Source: Bacteroidota bacterium (GTDB taxonomy: Bacteria > Bacteroidota > Bacteroidia > Palsa-948). From it: 50,024 nucleotides of DNA. Positions 47,726-50,024 of the stretch are shown here, piece by piece (position 1 is the first letter of the stretch; each line of letters begins with the position of its first letter). The translations under genes and the position numbers were made by a program. The stretch is taken from assembly GCA_003164895.1 (NCBI GenBank), contig PLUL01000011.1, positions 1 to 50,024 on the forward strand, written 5' to 3'. Under the pieces are notes generated by a model. It did no database searches. It was not told the origin of the DNA and saw nothing but the letters and a program-made list of their open reading frames with translations.

Positions 47726-47810
47726 GCCGAAGTGGCGGAATTGGTAGACGCGCTGGTCTCAAACACCAGTGGGCTTAACACCTGTACGAGTTCGACTCTC
47801 GTCTTCGGTA
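47726..47810 (+). tRNA. tRNA-Leu (anticodon CAA)
   Basis: An 85-base class II tRNA. The acceptor is GCCGAAG/CTTCGGT, the D arm GTGGCGGAATTGGTAGACGC, the anticodon stem CTGGT/ACCAG with loop CTCAAAC (anticodon CAA, reading UUG). A variable arm GGGCTTAACACCT and T arm GAGTTCGACTC follow. CCA is not encoded. TATATTCG at 47676..47683 is a likely -7 element. The 3' half is overlapped antisense by the serine recombinase gene, as expected when an element integrates at a tRNA 3' end. Confidence 0.95.
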
Positions 47811-49340
47811 CATAGTGAGAAGTTCTTTTTTCTCATCCCCTTTTTTATACTCCGCTTCTGCGGAGTTTTTTGTTTTCTGTGTTTGTATCTCCCTGTCTTT
47901 GGCGAGAATAGCAAAATGCGGCAACCAATCAAATACAATTTTTTTATCCTTCAAAAGACGGTTCGACCCGGTTTTATCGGAAAGTTCTTTGTACTCTGAT
48001 AAATCCATATCAGAGTTTGCAAGTTTCCCCGCGTAATTTGCAGTTTTCACCCAGTTGCGTAATGGTTCGACCCAGCTTTGCCCTTTCTTCTGTCCGTAGC
48101 TCGAACTCTTTAATTTCAAATCGGATTTTTGTTTCAATAGTTCGTCTTTCTTTTTGAGATAGTTTGTCTTTTCGATTTCTCCTTCCAAATATCCGCTTAC
48201 TAATTTATCCATCTTGCCCTCTATGTTTTTAAACTGTGCATCCATGTTTTGATTCTGGGATTTTGATTTCAGTTGTTCGTCTTTTTGCCAACGATCAATT
48301 TCTTTCATCATATTTTCAGCCCAATAATTTGTAATCGCAATCTTTTGAAACTGGTCTTTCAGTTGTTGAACGAGCAAGTCTTCGCGCAAATAGCCCTGTT
48401 TGCATGTGCCGAATTTTTTAGTGCAACGGTAGTAGCGATATGTTCCTCCATTGCCTTTTGCATATTGAGCTGTTATTTGTCCTCCGCATTCGGCACATTT
48501 AAACATACCCCGAAAAGGAAAGTAATGTTGTTTATCGCTTTTTCTTTTTCTTGCTCGTTCCTTTAATATTCTTTGTACAGTTTCAAAAGTTGCTTTATCT
48601 ATCAGGGGCTGAAATTTTCCTTCATACACTTCTCCTTTGTGTTCTAACAAACCTATATAGGTTTTGGTGGTTAAAAGACGATACACCATGAAAGGAGTAA
48701 AAGGTTTTCCATTTGCACACTCCACTCCTAAAGAACTCAGGTAATGCCTTCCGCTTTCCAAATTATAAGTCCCTCCTGAAAATTCTTTGTAAAAGTGTTG
48801 AATAATTTTTGCTTTTACAGGATCGGGGTCTATGTTTCTTGTCTTGGGGTTATTGATATATCCTACCGGAGCTTTATGTCCATATTCTCCGCGTCTTAGC
48901 TTTTGGCGAATGCCACGCTTTACATTTTCAGAAAGATTATCGGAATAATATTTGCTTTGTCCGAAAGCCACTTGCAGCATGAATAGTCCCTGCGGAGTTG
49001 GTTCAAACCAAAAAGTAGAAAACTTTAGACCGCAAATCTTCTGAGTATCTATGAGATAAATAATCTGTCCTCCATCTACGGAATTACGCGCGAGCCTGTC
49101 GGGATGCCATGCGAGTATTCCGACCGGCTCTTTGCTTGCATTTATTTTTTCAAGCATACGGTTGAACTCTGTTCGTCCGGGTTGCTTCGCGCTTTTGCTT
49201 TCTATAAAAGTTTCTGCTATGAAAATATTTTCGCGCTTTGCAAACTCGGTGAGTTCAACTAATTGCGCCTCGATGGACATCACTTGTCTTTCTTCTGCTT
49301 CGGAAGATTTGCGGGCATACAGGAAAAATTTGGTTGCCAT
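47775..49340 (-). CDS. serine recombinase (resolvase/large serine integrase type)
   Basis: A 521-residue site-specific recombinase. The catalytic N-terminal domain has YARKSSEAEERQ (nucleophile S12 expected), LAWHPDRLARN (DRLAR at 81-85) and KRGIRQKLRRGEYGHKAPVGY leading into the Recombinase domain. A zinc ribbon follows with C282/C285 (FKCAECGGQ) and C306/C313, then a coiled coil (about 330-430). The frame is open to 49385, but ATG 49340 starts the conserved part. The last 48 codons before RRRESNSYRC are inside a perfect 146-bp inverted repeat, and RRRESNSYRC itself is encoded by the antisense strand of tRNA-Leu. The gene is the recognisable end of an integrated element reaching beyond the window. 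Confidence 0.93.
   Translation of the reverse strand: MATKFFLYARKSSEAEERQVMSIEAQLVELTEFAKRENIFIAETFIESKSAKQPGRTEFNRMLEKINASKEPVGILAWHPDRLARNSVDGGQIIYLIDTQKICGLKFSTFWFEPTPQGLFMLQVAFGQSKYYSDNLSENVKRGIRQKLRRGEYGHKAPVGYINNPKTRNIDPDPVKAKIIQHFYKEFSGGTYNLESGRHYLSSLGVECANGKPFTPFMVYRLLTTKTYIGLLEHKGEVYEGKFQPLIDKATFETVQRILKERARKRKSDKQHYFPFRGMFKCAECGGQITAQYAKGNGGTYRYYRCTKKFGTCKQGYLREDLLVQQLKDQFQKIAITNYWAENMMKEIDRWQKDEQLKSKSQNQNMDAQFKNIEGKMDKLVSGYLEGEIEKTNYLKKKDELLKQKSDLKLKSSSYGQKKGQSWVEPLRNWVKTANYAGKLANSDMDLSEYKELSDKTGSNRLLKDKKIVFDWLPHFAILAKDREIQTQKTKNSAEAEYKKGDEKKELLTMYRRRESNSYRC
47808..47953. repeat. 146-bp perfect inverted repeat, left copy
   Basis: Identical over all 146 bases to the reverse complement of 49858..50003. 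It begins in the last three bases of tRNA-Leu, contains the tRNA terminator and codes for the last 48 shared residues of the recombinase. Outside it the two copies diverge at once. Confidence 0.95.
47849..47872 (+). terminator. terminator of tRNA-Leu, inside the recombinase frame
   Basis: ACTCCGC TTCT GCGGAGT followed by TTTTTTG, a compact GC-rich rho-independent terminator 38 bases after the tRNA. It lies within the recombinase coding region, where it reads NSAEAEY. The mirror copy is at 49939..49962. Confidence 0.8.
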
Positions 49341-49455
49341 GTTTTCTACTTTTTTGTTTGTGAAATTTTTTGAATGTGCAAACATAGTGAATAGGAATGT
49401 GTAGATTTTAATTGTTCAAAAATTATTTCCGCTGCAAGTGCTTTCTATGACACAA

Positions 49456-49681
49456 GAGATGAGCGTAAACAAAACAATTGGAAATTTTCTACGCTTTTAT
49501 TGCACAGATTAAATTTTGGCATAGTTTTTAAATTTCAAAAACAATACGCCAAAATTTAATCTGCATCACGCTTTAAGTACGCATTACAAGAGAAGAGCAA
49601 GGAGTAGTTTATTTTCTGGTAAGAACCTTGCACATCTCTTGTAACGCTTTTGCACATTTGTTTTGTTTACGCTTTCATCTC
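49456..49681. repeat. nested palindromes upstream of the recombinase
   Basis: A noncoding stretch with three inverted repeats in one frame. The outer one is GAGATGAGCGTAAACAAAAC (49456..49475) with GTTTTGTTTACGCTTTCATCTC (49660..49681). Inside lie AGATTAAATTTTGGC (49506..49520) with GCCAAAATTTAATCT (49548..49562), and a 22-base arm (49581..49602) pairing with 49626..49647 with three mismatches. It could fold into one branched structure in DNA or RNA. No gene is visible in 49341..49856. Confidence 0.75.
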
Positions 49682-49717
49682 AAATACAGTTTTAAAAAGC
49701 GGAAAAGAAAAAATCGC

Positions 49718-49817
49718 TTCCTGAAATTTCTTATTCCTTTGTTTAATTTTTCGGTATGGTTTTCAAATACCAAAAACGCACACCTAAAAATAAGACCCTT
49801 TCGTAATATTTCAGGAA
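49718..49817. repeat. second palindromic structure
   Basis: TTCCTGAAAT (49718..49727) pairs with ATTTCAGGAA (49808..49817) and encloses a smaller hairpin GGTAT/ATACC (49753..49771). The centre GTTTTCAAATACCAAAAAC resembles GTTTTTAAATTTCAAAAAC at the centre of the 49506..49562 palindrome, so the two structures seem related. Confidence 0.6.
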
Positions 49818-49856
49818 ACTGATTTTTTTCTTTGCTTTATTTGTCCATTCTGTCTA

Positions 49857-50024
49857 ATGAAGGATAAAAAAATTGTATTTGATTGGTTGCCGCATTTTGC
49901 TATTCTCGCCAAAGACAGGGAGATACAAACACAGAAAACAAAAAACTCCGCAGAAGCGGAGTATAAAAAAGGGGATGAGAAAAAAGAACTTCTCACTATG
50001 TACGGCTATCTTCATCTTGCGCGA
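49857..50024 (+). pseudogene. 3' fragment of a second recombinase copy, opposite strand, cut by window end
   Basis: From ATG 49857 the frame is open to the last base (56 codons). It repeats exactly the last 48 shared residues of the recombinase (KDKKIVFDWLPHF ... ELLTMY), then continues with a different tail, GYLHLAR, instead of RRRESNSYRC. Upstream there is no recombinase sequence, so this is a gene fragment in the present orientation. An inversion across the repeats would make it the end of the full gene. Confidence 0.75.
49858..50003. repeat. 146-bp perfect inverted repeat, right copy
   Basis: Exact reverse complement of 47808..47953, compared base by base. Only 21 unique bases follow before the window ends. 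Confidence 0.95.

Follow-up and report, generated by a model that had tools for sequence, protein, structure and literature searches.

A long inverted repeat in a Bacteroidota contig very probably encloses the recombinase module of a tRNA-inserting element that carries attP twice

Results

The window, i.e. the whole stretch of DNA analysed here (50,024 nt; Bacteroidota bacterium, assembly GCA_003164895.1, contig PLUL01000011.1), is the full length of the contig that we call C31, so that its right edge is a true contig end. Near this edge, two arms in opposite orientation enclose most of a large serine recombinase gene, the left one abutting a tRNA-Leu gene (Table 1). The arms are identical over their 146 nt, an inverted match that cannot be due to chance, and lengthen to 152 nt (47808-47959 and 49852-50003) if two mismatches near their inner edge are allowed; the contig terminates 21 nt beyond the right arm. 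This repeat had been noticed in a sequence-only reading of the DNA, and its coordinates and identity, as well as the 1904 bp lying between the arms, were re-derived here. The same reading had remarked that each arm encodes the same ~48 C-terminal residues (LKDKKIVFDW...LLTMY) and that the frame stays intact through either arm. Both statements hold, the gene reading through the left arm and the same frame being open in the right one.

Table 1. Features at the right end of the window (T, tRNA half-site; T', T-arm mimic; P, repeat arm; att assignments are putative)
Feature	Position	Strand	Remarks
tRNA-Leu(CAA)	47726..47811	+	ARAGORN; Rfam tRNA 56 bits
Large serine recombinase gene	47775..49340	-	521 aa; Pfam PF00239, PF07508, PF13408
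Left (tRNA-side) P arm	47808..47953	+	146 nt perfect; junction would be attL (T/P)
Terminator-like hairpin, left arm	47849..47866	+	points away from tRNA
Structured noncoding spacer upstream of recombinase gene	49386..49857	-	z about -8 to -10
Right P arm	49858..50003	-	inverted copy of left arm; junction with 50004 onward would be internal attP (P/T')
Same terminator-like hairpin, right arm	49945..49962	-	points into module
Core GTAC and first 21 nt of T' (tRNA T-arm mimic)	50000..50024	-	

The recombinase frame is open back to 49385; the ATG at 49340 is supported as start by an alignment, and in a second copy of the element, on contig C38, a stop precedes the same Met. Its last codons lie within the left arm and then run antisense to tRNA-Leu(CAA). 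The protein displays a Resolvase catalytic domain, then a Recombinase domain and a Zn-ribbon, the order of large serine integrases, and a profile search gave SPbeta YokA and the A118 integrase as closest PDB relatives. Its scores fall far below the cut-offs of the family profiles, with XisF as best NCBIfam match (80 bits, within a range of 80-117, vs 375) and Ccr at 75 bits vs 900. Plasmid, phage and viral-contig sequences queried with the recombinase returned no match.

The left arm starts exactly at the 3' end of tRNA-Leu(CAA), a feature left unremarked by the earlier reading. The outer arm bases GTAC are the likely crossover core. The proposal that the 3' end of the gene is itself the crossover arm stands in part: the arms do relate to crossover sites, and the crossover is placed at their outer edge (the tRNA 3' end, or CCA core) and not within them. 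On the tRNA side, the half-site T consists of the T-arm GTTCG (from 47790) and the 3' end of the tRNA. Beyond the right arm the window enters a T-arm mimic, T', which appears to continue in contig C57 as ...GGTTCGCGCAAGATGAAGATAGCC followed directly by GTAC. The GTTC motif lies 18 nt from the core in the tRNA vs 23 nt in the mimic.

The last 25 nt of the window recur unchanged where contig C57 ends and where contig C78 begins. C57 carries an RND efflux system, rhodanese genes and a gene for a DUF5712 family protein, probably a relaxase. The sequence that directly follows tRNA-Leu(CAA) in a congener (L224) matches C78, which places C78 beyond the element. Judged from these overlaps, the three contigs appear to belong to one element, with tRNA-Leu and the recombinase module on C31, the cargo on C57 and the chromosome on C78. 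The joins rest on the 25-nt overlaps. Against this reading, C78 resembles, after the core, the tmRNA-adjacent arm and not the tRNA-Leu arm, and 5.2 kb separate this sequence from the congener-homologous stretch. Nor was the second T' arm, an inverted copy of the T' end of C57, found at the start of C57, its other end.

The same genome harbors further copies. The one on C38 is complete and lies at tRNA-Ser(GGA), with 82% DNA identity to the window copy and its own 151-nt arms at 94%; two undetermined bases within an arm of this copy (L044, 2104-2110) hint at an unresolved assembly repeat. Arms are present at contig ends beside tRNA-Ser(GCT) and tRNA-Ser(TGA), and truncated copies at tRNA-Asp and tmRNA. 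The tmRNA locus (L040 on C8, 7136-8200) is a decayed element end, in which the recombinase is reduced to its C-terminal half and fused to a truncated chloride-channel-like gene.

Upstream of the recombinase gene, the spacer is strongly structured in both the window and the C38 copies (z about -8 to -14 vs base shuffles), with six compensatory pair changes between them. It is possibly a structured RNA or a single-strand DNA element. Two other copies from the window's class have similarly structured spacers; elsewhere the spacer has a median of only ~100 nt. Outside the window, structured spacers were recorded at L044 (140-650), L101 and L049. Searched against Rfam, the region gave the tRNA alone, other matches of the spacer being far below cut-off. 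As for the arm hairpins, T-run terminators point inward in 10 of 72 arms and outward in 1, counts that lend a general insulating role of the arms weak support.

A 16-sequence profile was run against 395 genomes of the window's phylum and 380 of Patescibacteria (the phylum of a Kerfeldbacteria genome). At E <= 1e-90, matches, which include related integrases devoid of repeats, occur in 6 and 128 genomes, respectively. The surroundings of 127 recombinase genes were analysed, from loci picked for their long contigs and hence not a random sample. Of the 77 genes scoring 540 bits or more, 74 were assessable: inverted arms flank the gene in 72, mostly from Patescibacteria, with a median length of 121 nt and an identity of 98% or better in 46 of the 72. 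Among more distant integrases no inverted arms were seen (0/35), yet 29/43 likewise end at a tRNA. In a tree built by a quick method, all repeat-bearing genes fall into one supported clade, with a few apparent losses. Within it, recombinase subclades favour one tRNA isotype, Ala in one and Ser in another (L137, L151, L154, L156, L161, L212; L143, L197-L202). The modules of L102/L171 (G287, window's phylum) and of L147 (G586, Patescibacteria) are 90% identical in DNA, which suggests recent transfer or a mis-binned contig.

In these relatives, the arm at the 3' end of the gene adjoins the 3' end of a tRNA or tmRNA, most isotypes being covered, and the other, internal arm adjoins a tRNA T-arm mimic. 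The motif [GT]TTC[GT] is found 20-25 nt before the core in 41/56 internal-arm flanks vs 1.2 expected in shuffles. Taking the core as the repeat edge, which may be off by a few nt, the GTTC distance in the mimic exceeds that in the tRNA by 5 nt in 19/29 loci and by 3, 4 or 6 nt in nearly all others. At ~30 loci the mimic opens a second module with inverted arms of its own, which have their core in common with the recombinase arm; at the far end the order is mimic, core, chromosome. These complete elements, of the form tRNA/P-recombinase-P/T'-cargo-T'/B, lie on one contig and measure 2.3-10 kb, the putative attL being next to the tRNA and the putative attR at the opposite end; for the genome of the window this layout is seen through contig overlaps only.

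The cargo in relatives includes type II and III restriction genes, an OLD-family nuclease, a P-type ATPase, a sodium symporter, a carbamoyltransferase and a dehydrogenase. At L141 (G619), two opposed elements occupy neighbouring tRNA-Leu and tRNA-Gln genes; one has a cargo module of ~0.5 kb without any ORF of 80 aa, making a 2.3 kb element with little beyond the recombinase.

In all 61 tRNA-adjacent copies the 3' end of the gene faces the tRNA (reverse, 0). Over their first 70 nt, the arms of one element match each other fully (median 100%) and those of different elements are unrelated (29%), so something homogenises the arms. How far they extend outward from the cores varies on both sides, as might be expected of repair or conversion tracts begun at cut cores.

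Discussion

Our results make it highly probable that the inverted repeat bounds the recombinase module of a mobile element which inserts at the 3' ends of tRNA and tmRNA genes by means of a large serine integrase, and which has two copies of attP, inverted relative to each other. The architecture, the three junctions of the relatives and the mimic with its 5-bp shift can be read from the sequences themselves, as can the single clade, the fixed orientation and the arms that are alike within and unrelated between elements. According to PMC3783163, the zinc-domain motif of A118-type integrases lies 5 bp closer to the core in attB than in attP. The outer motif is shifted in the same way here, for the T and T' halves of the sites. 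In agreement with this rule, tRNA/downstream would be attB, mimic/arm attP, tRNA/arm attL and mimic/downstream attR.

According to the proposed model, the integrase would read the conserved tRNA T-arm (GTTCG) as one half of attB, and in attP the core would have the mimic T' and the P arm as its two flanks. Integration would join attP and attB and use up one of the two inverted attP copies carried by the element, leaving attL (tRNA/P) near the end of the gene and attR (T'/chromosome) at the far end. The other attP would stay intact inside and split the element into two modules, one with the recombinase and one with the cargo, each flanked by arms. Recombination or repair initiated at the cores may keep the arms identical. 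The constant orientation of the gene is surprising where two near-identical attP copies are present, and counts against this explanation; the roles proposed below for the spare attP are tentative. Among the possibilities raised by the sequence-only reading, that of two opposed element ends comes nearest to the truth, since both arms would be the P sides of attP copies in opposite orientation.

That reading had put forward a self-inverting unit, in which the recombinase itself flips 47954-49857 via two outer sites, as Hin does. Two sites with the same core in inverted orientation do border the segment, with the gene inside and its frame preserved both ways. Free inversion should however leave both orientations among relatives, where 61 copies to none were counted; the sites would be of attL (T/P) and attP (T'/P) types, a pair that known serine integrases do not recombine (PMC3783163); and the protein is no small invertase but a 521-aa integrase with its three domains. 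Orientation and site types together do not support free self-inversion, which we regard as very improbable. The idea of a plain transposon with terminal inverted repeats, its recombinase and arms moving alone, would account for a module bounded by such repeats at several tRNA sites of one genome, but a T-arm mimic at fixed distance regularly forms the outer flank, a cargo module with its own arms directly follows in ~30 loci, and none was seen whose far side is plain tRNA-downstream DNA without mimic, so that it is hardly credible. As for an assembly palindrome, also considered earlier and brought to mind by a contig ending so close to the arm, it is refuted by independent copies: the second copy, at 82% identity, has the same design, as do elements in dozens of further genomes, several of them on contigs of 0.8-1.1 Mb, and the chances of a palindrome are practically nil.

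Two further readings concern what the duplicated site and arms could be for, and both are compatible with the tRNA-inserting element proposed here. Inversion by homologous recombination between the arms is possible, if rare, and might act as a switch: the gene would be off in its stored orientation and, once flipped, would be transcribed from the tRNA side and trigger excision. The arms span the 3' end of the gene, which therefore stays whole on flipping, their identity within elements against their divergence between elements implies recurrent exchange, and a single orientation was observed. On the other hand, the flipped form was never observed, the inward terminator in the arms of the window would blunt tRNA read-through, and gene conversion accounts for arm identity without inversion; we hold such a switch to be quite unlikely. 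Somewhat less doubtful, while still unlikely, is a natural cassette exchange in which the inverted attP copies let recombinase and cargo modules reassort. Near-identical recombinase modules lose DNA homology 0-47 bp past the core (L143/L201, L151/L161, L143/L197), of which the L143/L201 alignment, like L198/L199, stops at a contig end and adds nothing to the pattern. The cargo arms of L143 and L167 are 96% alike, whereas their recombinase DNA is only ~64% so over a short stretch. This pattern of shared modules suggests their reassortment. Yet homology passes the core by ~20-45 bp in most close pairs compared, so the swap point is not the crossover and a swap exactly at the core was rejected; some alignments end at contig ends, and ordinary homologous recombination could suffice.

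A puzzling repeat would be accounted for by a widespread element design. In a literature search on tRNA-targeting serine recombinases with inverted repeats, and on those of Patescibacteria, in which subscription papers and preprints were thinly covered, no two-attP design was described, and the design is apparently undescribed. A T-arm serving as half target would explain insertion at nearly every tRNA isotype, and each tRNA site paired with its mimic offers a natural, many-fold test of the 5-bp attP/attB rule. With restriction systems, transporters and metabolic genes on board in Patescibacteria genomes of ~1 Mb, the elements are candidate carriers of accessory genes there. More tentatively, and with less than even confidence, we could imagine bipartite elements that abound in Patescibacteria and occur in the window's phylum too, whose integrase reads the universal tRNA T-arm and whose doubled, inverted attP makes recombinase and cargo modules exchangeable, as a natural form of recombinase-mediated cassette exchange.

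These properties can be compared with those of known systems. Islands inserted by tyrosine integrases likewise occupy tRNA 3' ends without disrupting the tRNA, but they use another enzyme family and a single attP. In Hin systems, the serine recombinase gene is inside a segment bounded by inverted sites; Hin and Gin are however small invertases acting with an enhancer on sites of ~26 bp, whereas a large integrase, arms of ~120 bp and a fixed orientation are found here. XisF, to which the recombinase comes closest in NCBIfam while staying under the cut-off, excises a developmental element, the fdxN element. In SCCmec and other cassette chromosomes, serine recombinases (CcrA, CcrB, CcrC) insert modular cassettes at the 3' end of a conserved gene, which is rlmH and not a tRNA; the recombinase described here is far below the Ccr cut-offs, and we know of no SCCmec recombinase module within long identical arms. 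The large serine integrases (A118, SPbeta YokA and the phiC31 group) are alike in domain order, in the logic of attP and attB and in the 5-bp shift of the outer motif. The element of the window would differ from them in using tRNA T-arms as half attB, and in carrying attP twice, inverted, with one copy intact after integration.
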